DNA of 21,966 nucleotides, from the NCBI GenBank assembly GCA_016180645.1, contig JACPAV010000051.1, positions 1-21,966 of the forward strand, written 5' to 3'. The position numbers and the translations under genes are program-made. The DNA is from Nitrospirota bacterium. GTDB lineage: Bacteria > JACPQY01. Below the pieces are notes generated by a model. That model saw nothing but the letters and a program-made list of their open reading frames with translations, was not told the DNA's origin and did not search any database. Shown here in pieces: positions 10,967-19,468 of the stretch. Position 1 is the first letter of the stretch, and each line of letters starts with the position of its first letter.

Positions 10967-12226
10967 ATGATGAAAATTGGAAGTGTTGGAATGGCGACCA
11001 TCATCGGGCTTGCGGCCCTCGGTTTCCAAGGCTCGGTTCGGGCTGGGGAGAGTGTTCTTCGGCTTGAAGATGTTTTGACAGAGGTTCGCGAGAACAGTCC
11101 CCGAATTCAAGCGGCGGCGAAGATGTCCGAAGCGGCGCGCGCGCGTGTTCCACAAGCCAAGGCCTTGGATGACCCGATCCTGTCCATCGAAAACCAACCT
11201 GGCGATGAGCAGATGGTTGGAGTGGAGCAAATGATTCCGTTCCCTTGGAAGCTCAAGGCGCGAGCGACGGTGGCAGAAGCTGAATCGGACTCGGTCGACC
11301 GGATGTCGGACCGCACCGTTTTGGAAATTCTCGTCGAAGCCAAGCATGCCTTTCATCACCTTTTCCACTGGCACAAGAAGGTCGAGATCAACTTGGAGAA
11401 TCAGGACATTCTCCAAAGATTTGTCCGCATTGCCGAGTCCCGCTATCTGATCGGCCGCGCCGGTCAGGAGGATGTGCTCAAGGCGCAGGTGGAGGCGGGA
11501 AAGCTCGCCAATGAACTGGTGATGCTGAATCGGATGAAGGGGGAGGAAGAAGCGAATCTGAGCCGCTTGATGAATCGATCGATGGTGGCGCCCCTGCCTC
11601 CGCCGGAGTCGTTGCACGTCATGGAGAACCACGGACTTCGCGAGGATGATCTGTACGCGCTTGCGGAGGAGAATCGGCAGGAGACCCGATCTCAGGTCTC
11701 GATGGTGCGCGCCGGGGAAGAGAAGGCGAGGCTGGCCCGACTCGACTACGCTCCGGATTTTCTGGTCGGCGCCGAATGGGGGCGCATGGAAGGCACGCTC
11801 GGGCCTGCCGGCAAACGATGGGGCGCGATGCTCGGCCTCAGCCTCCCCGTGTGGTTCACCCAAAAGCAGCGGTACGGAGTGAGGGAGGCCGACGCGATGC
11901 TCCAGTCGTCGCGGTCTGACCTTCAGGATGTTCGCAATCGTGTCCGGTTTGAGGTGAAGCAGGCCTATTTGAACGTCACCGCCTCGAATGCGCAGCTCGA
12001 CATTTTCAATTCGGGACTTCTGCCCCAGGCCGAGCAGGATCTGAGGATCACCACCTCCGCCTATGAGGCGGGAAAGATGGACTTTCTCCGTCTGCTGGAG
12101 TCGCAGCGCGCGCTCCGCGAGCTGAAGATCGCGTACTTCGACGCCCTCCTCGAATACAACATGAGCTTGGGCGACCTCGAACTGGCTGTCGGCAAGGAAC
12201 TTCCGATCCATACCGGAAGTCACTAA
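10967..12226 (+). CDS. cusC: TolC-family outer membrane efflux protein (CusC/CzcC type)
   Basis: A 419-residue outer membrane factor with a signal peptide (about 1-26) and the two long helical repeats of the TolC/OEP fold. Typical features are LEDVLTEVRENSPRIQAAAKM near the mature N-terminus, DDPILSIENQPGD, and a final helix SAYEAGKMDFLRLLESQRALRELK. It forms the outer-membrane duct for the CusBA pump encoded downstream. The start is one of two adjacent ATGs (10967 or 10970) behind GAGAGG; the second has slightly better spacing. There is no lipobox Cys, unlike E. coli CusC. Assignment to heavy-metal efflux comes from the neighbouring cusB and cusA. Confidence 0.9.
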   Translation: MMKIGSVGMATIIGLAALGFQGSVRAGESVLRLEDVLTEVRENSPRIQAAAKMSEAARARVPQAKALDDPILSIENQPGDEQMVGVEQMIPFPWKLKARATVAEAESDSVDRMSDRTVLEILVEAKHAFHHLFHWHKKVEINLENQDILQRFVRIAESRYLIGRAGQEDVLKAQVEAGKLANELVMLNRMKGEEEANLSRLMNRSMVAPLPPPESLHVMENHGLREDDLYALAEENRQETRSQVSMVRAGEEKARLARLDYAPDFLVGAEWGRMEGTLGPAGKRWGAMLGLSLPVWFTQKQRYGVREADAMLQSSRSDLQDVRNRVRFEVKQAYLNVTASNAQLDIFNSGLLPQAEQDLRITTSAYEAGKMDFLRLLESQRALRELKIAYFDALLEYNMSLGDLELAVGKELPIHTGSH

Positions 12227-13453: not shown

Positions 13454-16400
13454 ATGATCGAAAAGCTGATCGAAGCCTGCGCCAAGAACCGATTCATGAC
13501 GCTCCTCGTCATCCTGAGCATCGCCCTGTTTGGAGTGTGGAGCGTCAAGCACATCCCGCTGGACGCGATTCCGGATCTGTCGGATACGCAGGTCATCGTC
13601 TACTCCCGATGGGACCGCAGCCCGGACATCATGGAGGACCAGGTGACCTATCCCATCATCTCGGCGATGTTGGGCGCGCCGAAGGTGAAGGCCATCCGGG
13701 GTTTCTCTGATTTCGGCTACTCCTACGTGTACATGATTTTCGAGGACGGGACCGATATCTATTGGGCGCGCAGCCGAACGTTGGAGTATTTGAGCAAGGT
13801 TACGCCCCTGCTGCCTGAAGGCGTGAGGACGGAGCTGGGTCCCGATGCCACCGGCGTCGGCTGGGTTTTTCAGTACGCGCTGGTGGATACCTCCGGCAAG
13901 CAGAGCCTTGCCGATCTCCGGAGCTTTCAGGACTGGACGCTCCGCTACTACCTCCAGGGCGTGCCGGGCGTGGCGGAAGTGGCGCCGATCGGCGGATTTG
14001 TGCGCCAGTACCAGGTGAACCTCGATCCCAACGCGCTCCTCTCGTACAAGATCCCCATCGAGAAGGTGATGGAGGCCATCCGCAACGGCAACAACGACGT
14101 GGGCGGGCGGCTCCTCGAATTCAGCGGAAGGGAATACATGGTGAGGGGCAGAGGCTACGCCCGGAGCACGGCGGATATCGAGAAGATTGTCGTGGGCGTC
14201 AGCCCCCAATCCGGGACGCCGATTCTCGTGAAGAATCTTGGGAGCGTGGTGCTGGGGCCGGATATCCGGCGCGGCCTGGCCGATTTGAACGGCGAGGGGG
14301 ACGTCGTGGGCGGAATCGTGATCATGCGCCACGGCGAGAACGCGCTCAAAGTCATCGACCGGGTCAAGAAGAAGCTCAAGGACATCGAGCCTACGCTTCC
14401 GGAGGGCGTCAAGCTGGTGACGACGTATGACCGCTCGGACCTCATCCTCCGCAGCATCGAAACGCTCAAAGATACGCTGGTGGAAGAAATGGTCGTCGTC
14501 AGCCTGGTCATTCTTGTCTTCCTCTGGCACATCCCTTCGGCCATCATCCCGATCTTCACGTTGCCCATCGCGGTGCTCTTCGCGTTTATTCCGATGTATT
14601 TCATGGGCCTCTCCAGCAACATCATGTCCCTCGGCGGCATTGCGGTGGCCATCGGGGCCCTCGTCGACGCCGCGGTGGTCGTGGTGGAGAACGCCCATAA
14701 GAAGCTGGAACGATGGATGCGGGAGGGAAGGCAGGGAGACTACCGAACCGTCCTCATCGGCGCCATCCAGGAGGTCGGGCGTCCCTCCTTTTATTCCCTC
14801 ATGGTCATCGCCGTGGCGTTCATCCCCGTTTTTACGTTGGAGGCGCAGGAGGGAAGACTTTTCAGACCGCTGGCGTTCACGAAGAACTTCTCCATGTTCT
14901 TCGCCGCCATTCTTGCGATCACCCTCGATCCCGCCATCCGGCTCCTGTTCATGCGCTTCGAGCCCTTCATCTTCCGGCCGAAATGGCTCGCCAAGGTGGT
15001 GAACGCGGCCGTGGTGGGTGAGCTGCACGAGGAGGACAAGCATCCCATCAGTCGTGTCCTGTTTCGTTTCTACCAGCCGGCCGCCGAACTCATGCTCCGC
15101 CGGCCCAAGACGGTTGTGCTCGTGGCCGTGGCCATCGTCATTGCCACGGTTCCGTTCTATTTCAAGCTTGGTTCGGAGTTCATGCCACCCTTGTATGAAG
15201 GGACGCTTCTCTACATGCCCACGACGCCGCCCGGGATCTCGGTGACCGAGTCCGGGAATCTACTGAACATCCAGGACCGGATCATCAAGAGCTTCCCCGA
15301 GGTGGATAGCGTTTTCGGGAAGGCGGGAAGAGCGGAGACTTCCACGGACCCCGCGCCGTTTTCGATGATGGAAACGACGGTCGTCCTCAAGCCGGAGGCC
15401 GAATGGAGGAAGGTGGACCGGTGGTACTCTTGGATGCCGGAGGTTTTCAAGAAGCCCCTGAGGCACGCCTGGAGGGAGGCCATCACGCCCGCCCAGCTTG
15501 TGGACGAAATGGACCAGGCGTTGAAAATCCCGGGAAGCGTCAACGCCTGGACGATGCCCATCAAGGCCCGCATCGACATGCTCACCACGGGCGTACGCAC
15601 ACCCGTCGGGATCAAGATTTTCGGGGCGGACCTCAAGGAGATCGAACGAATCGGGGAGCACATCGAGATGGTCTTGAAGCCGGTGAAGGGCACGCGAAGC
15701 ATTTTCGCCGAGAGGACTGCCGGAGGGTATTTCGTCGATTTCGATTTGAAACGCGAGGAACTGGCCCGCTACGGGCTCTCCGTCGCCGATGCGGAAATGG
15801 TCATCATGTCGGCGATCGGAGGGGAGAATGTTTCGCAGACCGTGGAGGGCAGGGAGCGGTATCCCATCAACGTGCGGTACGCCCGAGAGCTTCGGAACGA
15901 CATGGAACGGCTCAAGAGAGTTCTCGTCCCCACGGAGAGCGGGGCCCAGGTGCCGATTTCACAACTCGCGGACATCCGGATGGTCACGGGTCCCTCGATG
16001 ATCCGGGACGAAAACGGTAGACTCGCCGGCTACGTCTACGTGGACGTGGCGGGCCGGGACATCGGCAGCTACGTGGCCGACGCGAAGAAGGCCGTAAGGG
16101 AACAGGTGCAGATGCCCGCGGGATATGCCCTCACGTGGAGCGGTCAGTACGAGTCCATGGAGCGGGTGAAGGAGAGACTCAAGCTCGTCCTGCCCATCAC
16201 CGTGTTCATCATTTTCTTCCTCTTGTACATGAACACCAAATCGCTGACCAAAACCTTCATCGTCTTTCTGGCCGTGCCCTTTTCCGCCGTGGGAGCCATC
16301 TGGTTTCTCTATGCACTGGGCTATCAATCCTCGATTGCGGTGTGGGTGGGGCTGATCGCGCTGATGGGCTTGGACGCGGAGACGGGAATTTTCATGCTCT

Positions 16401-16714
16401 TATACCTCGATCTGGCCTATGACGAATGGAAGGCCAAGGGCAAGCTCAAGACCAAGGAAGATTTGCGGGAGGCGATTCTCTACGGCGCGGTGAAACGCGT
16501 GAGACCCAAAGTCATGACCGTCGCCTGCGCCGCGATCGGCCTTCTGCCCATCATGTGGTCGACCGGGGCGGGCGCCGACGTGATGAAGCGCATCGCCGCG
16601 CCGATGATCGGCGGGCTGTTCACGTCCTTCATCATGGAGCTGCTGGTCTATCCCGTGATCTACGAACTGTGGCGCGGGAGGGAACTGAAGAAAGTCATGA
16701 GTCGTGCGACATGA
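13454..16714 (+). CDS. cusA: CusA-type heavy-metal RND efflux pump
   Basis: A 1086-residue inner-membrane proton-driven transporter of the HME-RND group with 12 expected membrane helices and two large periplasmic loops. The family signature is clear (IPLDAIPDLSDTQVIVYSRW and GVDxAxxVENAHK-like GALVDAAVVVVENAHK). The proton-relay aspartate is Asp405, at the same number as in E. coli CusA. All three metal-binding methionines have counterparts: Met588 (LLYMPTT), Met638 (FSMMETT) and Met709 (RIDMLTTG). This points to monovalent Cu(I)/Ag(I) rather than the divalent Czc-type ions. A ~20-residue insertion (WRKVDRWYSWMPEVF region) between Met638 and Met709 is common in relatives. The ATG at 13454 follows cusB closely, indicating one operon. 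Confidence 0.96.
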   Translation: MIEKLIEACAKNRFMTLLVILSIALFGVWSVKHIPLDAIPDLSDTQVIVYSRWDRSPDIMEDQVTYPIISAMLGAPKVKAIRGFSDFGYSYVYMIFEDGTDIYWARSRTLEYLSKVTPLLPEGVRTELGPDATGVGWVFQYALVDTSGKQSLADLRSFQDWTLRYYLQGVPGVAEVAPIGGFVRQYQVNLDPNALLSYKIPIEKVMEAIRNGNNDVGGRLLEFSGREYMVRGRGYARSTADIEKIVVGVSPQSGTPILVKNLGSVVLGPDIRRGLADLNGEGDVVGGIVIMRHGENALKVIDRVKKKLKDIEPTLPEGVKLVTTYDRSDLILRSIETLKDTLVEEMVVVSLVILVFLWHIPSAIIPIFTLPIAVLFAFIPMYFMGLSSNIMSLGGIAVAIGALVDAAVVVVENAHKKLERWMREGRQGDYRTVLIGAIQEVGRPSFYSLMVIAVAFIPVFTLEAQEGRLFRPLAFTKNFSMFFAAILAITLDPAIRLLFMRFEPFIFRPKWLAKVVNAAVVGELHEEDKHPISRVLFRFYQPAAELMLRRPKTVVLVAVAIVIATVPFYFKLGSEFMPPLYEGTLLYMPTTPPGISVTESGNLLNIQDRIIKSFPEVDSVFGKAGRAETSTDPAPFSMMETTVVLKPEAEWRKVDRWYSWMPEVFKKPLRHAWREAITPAQLVDEMDQALKIPGSVNAWTMPIKARIDMLTTGVRTPVGIKIFGADLKEIERIGEHIEMVLKPVKGTRSIFAERTAGGYFVDFDLKREELARYGLSVADAEMVIMSAIGGENVSQTVEGRERYPINVRYARELRNDMERLKRVLVPTESGAQVPISQLADIRMVTGPSMIRDENGRLAGYVYVDVAGRDIGSYVADAKKAVREQVQMPAGYALTWSGQYESMERVKERLKLVLPITVFIIFFLLYMNTKSLTKTFIVFLAVPFSAVGAIWFLYALGYQSSIAVWVGLIALMGLDAETGIFMLLYLDLAYDEWKAKGKLKTKEDLREAILYGAVKRVRPKVMTVACAAIGLLPIMWSTGAGADVMKRIAAPMIGGLFTSFIMELLVYPVIYELWRGRELKKVMSRAT

Positions 16715-16753: not shown

Positions 16754-17170
16754 ATGAAACGAATAATCTCAATGGCATGGGCGGCATTTTTCATGTCGGC
16801 AGGGTTGGCCCTGGCCGGCGAGAAAGTGACGCTGCAAGGCGAGGTGCTGGATTCAGCCTGCTACATCGCCCACGGCGAAAAAGGCAAGGCGCACGAAAAG
16901 TGCGCCAAGATGTGCCTGAGAAAAGGCGCTCCAGCCGCGCTGCTGACGGACGATCAGAAGGTAATCCTCCTGATAACCAAGCACGGCGGGGAAGCGTTGT
17001 ACGAGGAGTTGAGGAAACTCGGAGGGGAGCGCATCGAAGCCGTCGGCGAGAAGTTCGACAAGGGCGGAATGGTGGCACTCGAATTGGAGTCCATCAAATC
17101 GCTCCAATCCGCCTCCCCGGCGAAGGAGAAGCATGAAGAAAGCGGCCACGGTGGTGGCCACATGCACTGA
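16754..17170 (+). CDS. Secreted Cys/His-rich protein, probable metal binding
   Basis: A 138-residue periplasmic protein with a signal peptide (about 1-21, ending GLALA-G). After a short beta segment (EKVTLQGEVLDSACYI) comes a cluster of potential ligands: Cys36, His40, His47, Cys50 and Cys54 (HEKCAKMC). The tail is His/Gly-rich (HEESGHGGGHMH). Proteins with this DxACYxxHGxKGxxHxKCAxxC pattern recur beside metal genes but carry no settled function. It follows cusA by 39 bp with AGGAG upstream of the ATG, so it is probably in the cus operon. Cu or Ag scavenging in the periplasm is inferred from residues and position. Confidence 0.8.
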   Translation: MKRIISMAWAAFFMSAGLALAGEKVTLQGEVLDSACYIAHGEKGKAHEKCAKMCLRKGAPAALLTDDQKVILLITKHGGEALYEELRKLGGERIEAVGEKFDKGGMVALELESIKSLQSASPAKEKHEESGHGGGHMH

Positions 17171-17227: not shown

Positions 17228-17264
17228 GCTTCAAGAGGATCAGATTGTGTCTGGAGGTGTCAGC

Positions 17265-18128
17265 ATGAACGAAATCGTGGAGAAAGATCCCGTGTGCGGG
17301 ATGGATGTGAAGGCCGGGCACGAGGCGGCCCGGTTTGATCACCTCGGCAAGACGTACCTATTCTGCAATTCCGGCTGCCGGGACACATTCGCCAAGAACC
17401 CCGATGCCCACGTAAAGCGCGAAGGGGTGATGGGCAATGGACGTGGCGCGAAACCGCACCAGCACTACCGCGTGCTGCCTCCGATGAAGCACGATTTCTT
17501 TACACCGATCTATGACTTGGGCTGCCGACTCATGGGGCTGGGAACGCGATTCCGGGACTCCATCATTGGTTTCCTGGAACTGCGCGGTGGAGAGTCCGTT
17601 CTGGATGCGGGTTGCGGCACGGGCGTCTTGGCCGTGCGGATCAAGGAAAGAGTTCCCCTGGCAAACATGACCGGACTGGACCCGACCTCCTCCGCGCTTC
17701 GAATCGCTCGAAGGCGGGCGGAGAAGCGGAAGGTTGCCGTCGAGTGGAAGGAAGGGTTCGCGGAGTCCATGCCGTTCGCGGAGGCGACGTTCGACCGCGT
17801 GGTCACGTCGCTCGCTTTCCATCACATCCCCGCCGACAAGAAGATTCCGGCCCTCCGCGAGTGTCTTCGCGTCCTGAAGCCGGGAGGCCGACTCCTGCTG
17901 GTGGACTTTTGCGAGTTGGATACGTTCGGCGCGCGGTTCTTTCTCAAGACCGTGGTCGGCTTGGAGCACTTCGGTGATCAAATCGGCCGGCTGGACGACT
18001 TTCCGCGCGAGGCGGGTTTCAGCCATATTCGGCGCGTCCATCGCGCCCACCTGGGGATTGGGTTCTACATCGGTGAGAAAGGCGCGAGCCAAGAATCGAG
18101 AGGAGGAGAAAATGAGCAAAGGGTTTAG
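17265..18128 (+). CDS. YHS metal-binding domain fused to SAM methyltransferase
   Basis: A 287-residue cytoplasmic protein (no signal peptide). Residues about 7-50 form a YHS/TRASH-type metal-binding domain (DPVCGMDVKAGHEAARFD, then GKTYLFCNSGCRDTF), with Cys11, Cys34 and Cys38 as likely ligands. Residues about 70-275 form a class I methyltransferase of the UbiE/Methyltransf_11 type, with SAM motif I VLDAGCGTG (112-120), and later VVTSLAFHHIP and LRVLKPGGRLLLVDF. The fusion suggests a metal- or metalloid-linked methylation, but it lacks recognisable ArsM cysteines around the active site and the substrate is unknown. The ATG at 17265 is chosen because GGAGG lies 7 bases before it. The 3' end overlaps the next gene by 17 bases. 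Confidence 0.88.
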   Translation: MNEIVEKDPVCGMDVKAGHEAARFDHLGKTYLFCNSGCRDTFAKNPDAHVKREGVMGNGRGAKPHQHYRVLPPMKHDFFTPIYDLGCRLMGLGTRFRDSIIGFLELRGGESVLDAGCGTGVLAVRIKERVPLANMTGLDPTSSALRIARRRAEKRKVAVEWKEGFAESMPFAEATFDRVVTSLAFHHIPADKKIPALRECLRVLKPGGRLLLVDFCELDTFGARFFLKTVVGLEHFGDQIGRLDDFPREAGFSHIRRVHRAHLGIGFYIGEKGASQESRGGENEQRV

Positions 18129-18606
18129 GCTGCTCATCGCGTTCGGTATTTTTCTGGGTGCGTGCTCTTTTGGCGCGCTCACTCCGGAGAAAGTCTCGAA
18201 GCGCCTCAAGCACGGCTCGCTTGTGGCGGATCGGAGTCGGGTCTGCATGTTGCAGGATACGTACCAGGCCCAGAGCGTCCTCCCAATACCGTACAACGGG
18301 AAGACGTACTACGGCTGATGCGCGGGCTGCGTTGCCCGGTTCGGGCAAGATCCTGAGAAATTCTCGAAATCAACCGACCCCATCTCAGGGGCAAATGTGG
18401 ACAAGGCCCTCGCCTTCGCCTACCAGCGCGACGGAAGGGTTTTCTATTTCGAAACACTCGAAAACATCCTGGGGTTTGACCGTGATCCAAACGCACTCGG
18501 GCGTGTGCCGGTCACCCAGGCAATTCCGACCCCCAGGATGGGGGAAGTGCCGTCGGAAGGCAGGAGCCTGGAACGGCCAATGAATATGCAAGGAGGAACG
18601 CCATGA
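18112..18606 (+). CDS. Putative TRASH-type selenoprotein lipoprotein (Sec69 at in-frame TGA)
   Basis: The frame opens at ATG 18112 behind AGGAGGAG, meets a TGA at 18316-18318 and stays open to a TGA at 18604-18606, giving 164 residues if the first TGA is read as selenocysteine. Residues 1-18 look like a lipoprotein signal (FLGAC, Cys18). The body matches small TRASH-type metal-binding proteins: RVCMLQDTY (43-51), YNGKTYYGUCAGC (61-73), FGQDPEKF, DPISGANVDKA and GRVFYFETLENI. In relatives as I remember them the motif reads YYGCCxxC, so the TGA replaces the first Cys of the CC pair. Conservation is as good after the TGA as before it. A hairpin resembling a bacterial SECIS follows, and the next gene's ATG overlaps the distal stop, implying that ribosomes reach it. 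The alternatives are a nonsense-mutated pseudogene or a sequencing error. A product ending at 18318 would lose most of the domain. Confidence 0.8.
18332..18348 (+). promoter_or_regulatory. Candidate bacterial SECIS hairpin
   Basis: TTGCCCG (18332-18338) and CGGGCAA (18342-18348) form a perfect 7-bp stem with a GTT loop. The loop starts 20 bases after the TGA at 18316-18318 and its first base is G. This fits the general bacterial SECIS description: a stem-loop just downstream of UGA with a G at the start of the apical loop. A competing 5-bp hairpin (18323-18338) shares one arm. Confidence 0.65.
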
Positions 18607-18992
18607 ATAACAAGAAACTTCCCACCTCACCCCTCACCCCTCTCGCCTCTCGATGCAGAGGTATTATCGAACCCATTTCAGCCATTGCCGTGGCAGGGAT
18701 GGTCGTCATGATGGGCGGCATGATGGCTTTCATGGTGTGGGGCATGCCCAAGATGATGGGCATGATGCACGGCGGGCATGATGAAAAATCGCATGAGGAA
18801 GCGACGGAACATGGCGCCCACGCCACAAAGGCCGTCGATCCGGTGTGTGGCATGGAAATGAAGATCGCGGAGGACACGCCGAGAACCACCCACGAAGGCA
18901 AGACCTACTACTTCTGCTCAGGGGAAGACCTCAAGAAGTTCCTCGACGAGCCGGAGAAGTACGCGAAGCCCGGCGATCACGAGCGCAAGTAG
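18603..18992 (+). CDS. Membrane-anchored YHS-domain metal-binding protein
   Basis: A 129-residue protein with one membrane helix (about 25-47) that is unusually Met-rich and continues as MPKMMGMMHGGHD. A His/Glu-rich linker follows (about 56-73) and then a YHS domain (about 78-122; DPVCGMEM with Cys82, GKTYYFCSGEDLKKF with Cys105). The Met, His and Cys ligands suggest Cu(I)/Ag(I) capture at the membrane surface. Its ATG overlaps the stop of the selenoprotein frame (ATGA) and is preceded by GGAGG, which indicates translational coupling. The first ~18 residues come from a CT-rich tract (about 18620-18655) resembling intergenic low-complexity DNA, so the native N-terminus may have been altered by insertion. 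Function is inferred. Confidence 0.82.
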   Translation: MNNKKLPTSPLTPLASRCRGIIEPISAIAVAGMVVMMGGMMAFMVWGMPKMMGMMHGGHDEKSHEEATEHGAHATKAVDPVCGMEMKIAEDTPRTTHEGKTYYFCSGEDLKKFLDEPEKYAKPGDHERK

Positions 18993-19092: not shown

Positions 19093-19468
19093 ATCCTCTT
19101 GGGCCTGTTCATAGCCGCCGCCGATGCACGTGCCTTCGTTCCCGAGGATGGCTTCCACCCCGGCTCCAAGATGGAGATGTGGAATCTCCACGGCCATCTG
19201 TTCACCGACGTTGTAAAGAAGCATGGGTATCGCGGACGTGTGGAAGAGTCCCCGGTCGGGCCGGATGTATCCGCGGCGGCTCCAGATCCGCATACCAGAG
19301 GCCGGCATGGAATGGGAACTGACTCCCGCATTTGACGATCAGGAGTTCTCCATGATGATGAACATGATGGCGTTCTGGACGGGGACGGGATCGGTTCAAG
19401 GAAGCACGGGAGGCGTTTCCGCCACCGGTCGCTACTGCAGCATGCTGCAAGGATACGGGAAGGAGTGA
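19069..19468 (+). pseudogene. Remnant of an AttH/CrtC-type lipocalin-domain gene
   Basis: Two fragments in different frames cover the two ends of one family. The first frame (from 19069) gives FVPEDGFHPGSKMEMWNLHG and HLFTDVVKKHGYR, resembling the family N-terminus (HPG, then EWWY, then GHL). The second frame (to 19468) gives VWKSPRSGRMYPRRLQIRIP, then LTPAFDDQE and a final FWTGTGSVQG with VSATGRYCSMLQGYG, resembling the family C-terminus. The intervening ~200 residues are missing and the frames differ, so an internal deletion with frameshift near 19225 is the simplest reading. The first ~8 residues, MPAFAGMT, come from the palindromic repeat. The peptide up to AAADARA could still look like a weak signal peptide, though without positive charges. 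Intact relatives are periplasmic lipocalin-like or carotenoid hydratase-like proteins. Confidence 0.7.

Follow-up and report, generated by a model that had tools for sequence, protein, structure and literature searches.

A putative selenocysteine at a TRASH ligand position in a YHS-domain lipoprotein encoded beside a Cus-type efflux operon of a Nitrospirota bacterium

The YHS/TRASH-domain lipoprotein described here is a 164-residue protein of a Nitrospirota bacterium, encoded at 18112..18606 of contig JACPAV010000051.1, in which an in-frame TGA at codon 69 (18316..18318) is very likely read as selenocysteine (Sec). The window, meaning the whole stretch of 21,966 nucleotides that was analysed, is the entire contig C51 of a 4.7 Mb genome that is 97% complete, and all features of the window given below lie on its + strand. 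That the predicted Sec69 occupies a TRASH ligand position is likely as well, a judgement which is held a little less firmly and which does not extend to metal delivery. The widest reading, that this is the first Sec inside a TRASH/YHS metal-ligand site and belongs to a periplasmic, membrane-anchored selenolate protein that binds Cu(I)/Ag(I) and serves the Cus efflux pump, stands at even chances. Discussions of Sec almost always treat it as catalytic, and if this reading is true, its presence at an established metal-ligand position, together with dozens of Cys relatives for comparison, would make selenium directly testable as a softer ligand of Cu(I)/Ag(I).

The gene starts with ATG at 18112 behind a Shine-Dalgarno sequence (AGGAGG, 18101..18106) and ends with TGA at 18604-18606, and the TGA of codon 69 is the sole break in its frame, which agrees with the original prediction that the frame is otherwise undamaged. 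The readthrough product begins with MSKGFRLLIAFGIFLGAC... and carries a lipobox, L15-G16-A17-C18 (18154..18165), at the end of the predicted signal peptide, followed by VCMLQD and then by YNGKTYYG-U-CAGC, DPEKF, DPISGANVDKA and VFYFE. The lipobox was judged by eye against the pattern [LVI][ASTVI][GAS]C, and Gly at position -2 is an accepted variant. Scored with Cys substituted for Sec, the readthrough protein matches Pfam YHS (PF04945) in two stretches with 43.5 bits against a cut-off of 30.3. The earlier proposals of a single continuous, family-like protein across the TGA, with exactly these coordinates, and of a TRASH-type lipoprotein are both borne out by this match, by the cysteine pattern described below and by the lipobox. 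A second YHS-like half that lacks Cys (DPISGANVDKA...VFYFETLENILGF, 18376..18483) is indicated by Pfam, the alignment, the AlphaFold model and structural comparison. AlphaFold is confident of the core (pLDDT block means of 97-98 over residues 31-120). A Foldseek search with the model returned no match at E <= 0.001 and a sequence search of solved structures none either; a second structural comparison (VIA) gave weak Z scores only, with a maximum of 4.2 for toluene monooxygenase followed by L24e at about 3. The C-terminal region of toluene monooxygenase and L24e are both described as YHS/TRASH (PMC4626032), and these weak structural neighbours are consistent with a YHS/TRASH fold, short of proof.

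YHS/TRASH domains are believed to coordinate transition metals with a C-x(about 22)-C-x3-C pattern and one more ligand; in ribosomal L24e, four cysteines of the TRASH site hold Cd, and a YHS adenylyl cyclase that is responsive to Cu has a probable Cu site with the proposed ligands D178, C181, C204 and C208, the pattern of the M. phlei enzyme being C181-x22-C204-x3-C208 (PMC4626032). The readthrough protein has C45-x23-U69-x3-C73, Sec replacing one Cys, where the invariant Cys45 (18244..18246) is the first and the invariant Cys73 (18328..18330) the last TRASH ligand, and the likewise invariant Cys70 (18319..18321) is vicinal to Sec69. From this pattern and the vicinal Cys70 it follows that Sec, if inserted, would sit at a ligand position. 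We infer that the product is exported and anchored by lipid as a double YHS/TRASH domain with a metal site formed by C45, U69, C73 and the vicinal C70. It would most likely be a periplasmic binder of a soft metal, Cu(I) or Ag(I), with the selenolate softer and more nucleophilic as a ligand than the Cys of the ancestor, and might hand the metal to the CusCBA pump encoded upstream or buffer it for the pump. The Cu/Ag efflux genes noted nearby in the original prediction are indeed present as a CusCBA operon directly upstream of the selenoprotein gene region, and comprise a CusC-like outer-membrane efflux protein (10967..12226) and a CusB-like adaptor with a heavy-metal-binding domain (PF19335; 12363..13439), both recognised by profile matches, and a CusA/CzcA heavy-metal RND pump (13454..16714; TIGR00914, 1100 bits). 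Cus-like genes also lie within the fetched stretch at 31 of 80 relative loci (the best 80 of 236).

The main functional rival accepts the selenoprotein and gives it a different chemistry, in which Sec69 and Cys70 would act as a redox pair, forming a selenenylsulfide, and reduce metal ions or oxidised thiols. The vicinal U-C suits such a bond, and where the function of a prokaryotic selenoprotein is known, it is mostly that of an oxidoreductase (PMC2398784). However, U-x3-C and C45 together have the spacing of the TRASH metal site, where L24e carries Cd and the YHS adenylyl cyclase probably Cu (PMC4626032), and a reductase partner is not evident in the operon. The redox pair is the less likely of the two, although a serious contender, and, given Sec, a metal-ligand role rather than a purely redox one is somewhat favoured.

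Column 69 of the family alignment points to Sec in the first place. The UGA is in frame, homology continues on both of its sides, and it aligns to a conserved Cys, as in a selenoprotein gene. The closest relative, G001 (contig JACPQY010000017.1), which is the only other genome of the phylum searched, encodes an ortholog (L021/L030) with 54% identity over 121 residues that reads YHQ-CCAGC and has TGC at column 69. GTDB contigs were scanned with an alignment masked at this column, so that any residue is allowed there. At the 79 loci of many phyla obtained from the best 80 of 236 relatives, column 69 is Cys (TGC/TGT) in 78 and Tyr in one degenerate copy, with TGA at none, a count to be read with the proviso that the DNA pattern may not cover TGA. 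This is the outcome that had been anticipated for the homologs, and a Sec here would stand, in a little-sampled bacterial lineage, where every relative found but the Tyr copy has Cys (best 80 of 236). In a 61-sequence alignment, which the window protein entered with Cys at 69, C45, C69, C70, C73, Y66, K98 and F113 are invariant. The Cys family, VCMVND...GKTYYGCCEMC...DPxSGxxVDKA, is found in Bacteroidota, Myxococcota, Acidobacteriota, Dadabacteria and others and has the same domain order as the window protein, with which it shares the invariant C45, C70, C73, Y66, K98 and F113; it differs in having Cys at column 69 and never TGA (best 80 of 236) where the window protein has the predicted Sec. 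No NCBIfam name was found for this Cys family. Judged from the sequences, column 69 is a textbook exchange of Cys for a predicted Sec, in one genome only. No second Sec-containing member was found among the GTDB relatives (best 80 of 236), in 396 genomes of the phylum of genome G084, in 386 varied genomes, in the two genomes of the organism's own phylum, in viral contigs or in plasmids, so the TGA at codon 69 stands without confirmation by conservation. Selenoprotein predictions that have no TGA-containing homologs have been published (PMC12013277).

The source genome encodes the machinery to read UGA as Sec. All four sel genes whose presence the original prediction had made a point of are found above curated cut-offs, namely selC (tRNA-Sec, 73.3 bits, also called as tRNA-SeC by ARAGORN), selB (370 bits), selA (556 bits) and selD (357 bits). 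SelD is itself a selenoprotein, its gene having an in-frame TGA (L126:9716-9718) in the N-terminal active-site loop (ARCAG-U-AGK). A Uxx-star family 1 glutaredoxin-like selenoprotein (NF041114; L126:11690-11902, TGA at 11723) is encoded 2 kb downstream of selD; it has the motif IYGKAG-U-PYT and scores 99.6 bits (cut-off 72). On the strength of the sel genes and these two recognised selenoproteins, the organism very probably decodes UGA as Sec. Formate dehydrogenase was considered as a further selenoprotein; its best match has no internal stop and so gives no sign of Sec use. The closest relative G001, whose genome is 84% complete, yielded no selA.

A SECIS-type hairpin (18332..18348) follows the TGA. 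With the U of UGA as position 1, a 7-bp stem is formed by nucleotides 17-23 and 27-33 around the apical loop G24-U25-U26, which is closed by G-C (GGUUC). SelB carrying Sec-tRNA would recognise this hairpin, and UGA 18316 would for this reason be read as Sec and translation continue as far as the distal TGA at 18604. Stem positions and loop start (17-23/27-33, G24) are identical in the hairpin of the genome's own selD, and the hairpin of the Uxx-star gene lies 3 nt further on than the shared position. The bSECIS model describes a stem of 4-16 bp, a loop of 3-9 nt, a G in the first two loop positions and a distance of 16-37 nt from the UGA, with an MFE <= -7.5 kcal/mol (PMC13188914), and the window hairpin falls within all four constraints with 7 bp, the loop GUU in GGUUC, 20 nt and -10.3 kcal/mol for the local hairpin. 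A 7-bp stem at the selD position follows 3 of the 2,598 TGAs examined in the genome, of which two are those of this gene and of selD, and a looser criterion (at least 7 bp, loop start 19-27) is satisfied at 3.1% of TGAs. The match to the selD geometry was spotted post hoc and chance figures of 0.05-0.4% have to be weighed accordingly, these being the occurrence of the selD geometry at 0.05% of all genome positions examined and of a 7-bp stem in 0.44% of synonymous codon redraws that keep the protein (P = 0.0044). Across 74 distinct Cys homologs there is neither a 7-bp stem nor, at the selD position, one of 6 pairs; the corresponding region of the G001 ortholog folds differently. The hairpin is also lacking after the TGA that ends this gene and after other terminal TGAs of the window. 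The MFE of the whole 40-60 nt is ordinary against shuffles (z of -0.2 to -1.1, GC-rich) and that of selD is likewise ordinary, so energy alone is no evidence in either gene, and some longer stretches around the hairpin favour other folds.

Set against Sec insertion, a nonsense mutation and a sequence error are together improbable. The first would make the gene a recent pseudogene, in which a true TGC-to-TGA mutation leaves a 68-residue fragment; TGA is one base away from TGC, it occurs in this genome only among the relatives searched (best 80 of 236), and a nearby gene at 19093-19465 is a deleted remnant. However, 51 single-base nonsense changes are possible in the gene and only 4 of these turn a conserved Cys codon (45, 69, 70 or 73) into TGA, the genome decodes Sec, the TGA is followed by a selD-like hairpin that arises in 0.44% of synonymous draws and in no Cys homolog, and nothing else interrupts the frame, whose end is coupled to the next gene. 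Identity to the ortholog (L030) is 62% after the TGA versus 44% before it, with pN of 0.25 and pS of 0.72, values which average a long history and give no date for the TGA. A recent pseudogene is on balance rather improbable. An error of sequencing or assembly at one base, the true codon being TGC, is less probable still; a rearranged gene lies close by (19093-19465), yet a single wrong base would not make the hairpin, which needs several bases different from the ortholog (GTTGCCCGGTTCGGGCAA versus GCGGCGCGCTTCATGCAG). That UGA is generally reassigned to another amino acid or suppressed without selenium would account for a frame open through one TGA and is scarcely credible, since TGA is the ordinary stop of several window genes including CusA and this gene itself, which makes general reassignment unneeded, and since selA, selB, selC and selD are present.

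Sec insertion at codon 69 being the preferred reading, its novelty lies in the site. The original prediction of a new selenoprotein is supported by the Sec machinery, the Cys column and the hairpin, but YHS selenoproteins as such are already known. NF041384 (motif GxU) is a YHS-domain protein which, like the candidate, has Sec for Cys in some organisms. Its Cys/Sec site, however, is outside the TRASH ligands, whereas the predicted Sec of the window protein is the first Cys of the TRASH C-x3-C. Four members of NF041384 that were fetched have YFASAEN/YFSSAEN and similar sequences where the window protein has YYGUCAGC, the TRASH position being occupied by residues other than Cys; the Cys that these members conserve follows the YHS core, in the motif GG[YW]C/KGWC. 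Membership of the window protein in NF041384 was rejected, as there is no match up to an E value of 1 (cut-off 70 bits) and the site is different; the model also finds no match in the whole genome at E 1e-8. From the sequences compared, the predicted Sec site is distinct from, and better understood than, the GxU site. With the TRASH/YHS domains of L24e, Cu-ATPase and adenylyl cyclase (PF04945) the candidate shares the Pfam match and the C-x23-U-x3-C pattern, and it differs from them in the putative Sec at the first C-x3-C residue, the extra vicinal Cys70, predicted lipoprotein export and the second, Cys-less half. Other predicted metal-handling selenoproteins (MerT-like, E1-E2 ATPase UxxC, SaoB/SaoC and the SO_0444 family of Cu/Zn efflux) have Sec as a proposed metal ligand in a heavy-metal resistance setting, as here, but their folds and families differ (PMC13188914). 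Among the papers searched, none names the TRASH domain together with selenocysteine, and no report of Sec at a TRASH site was found. None of the selenoprotein annotation models tried covers the site, and such genes are therefore likely to be called as truncated ORFs.

The gene downstream encodes a membrane YHS protein (18603..18992) that has its own Shine-Dalgarno sequence (AAGGAGG, 18590-18596) and whose ATG at 18603 overlaps the distal TGA as ATGA, confirming the start-stop coupling that had been proposed. A further 0.1-0.5 kb downstream, 19093-19465 is a gene remnant, the intact counterpart being L128:7405-8466 of G001; the remnant keeps residues 12-49 and 250-353 in different frames, the middle 200 residues being deleted, which implies that gene decay or an assembly fault has touched the neighbourhood. 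PADLOC found nothing in the window. The start of the selenoprotein gene is overlapped by a gene for a YHS domain fused to a UbiE-like methyltransferase (17247..18128, Pfam); G001 instead has one gene for a YHS protein (L128:39-668) and another for the methyltransferase (L128:8467-9147). Between the fusion and CusA is encoded an exported conserved protein (TLQGEVLDSACY..., 16754..17170), which has no convincing Pfam or NCBIfam family. A copy with 69% identity exists in G001, the nearest relative, where it likewise adjoins YHS genes.
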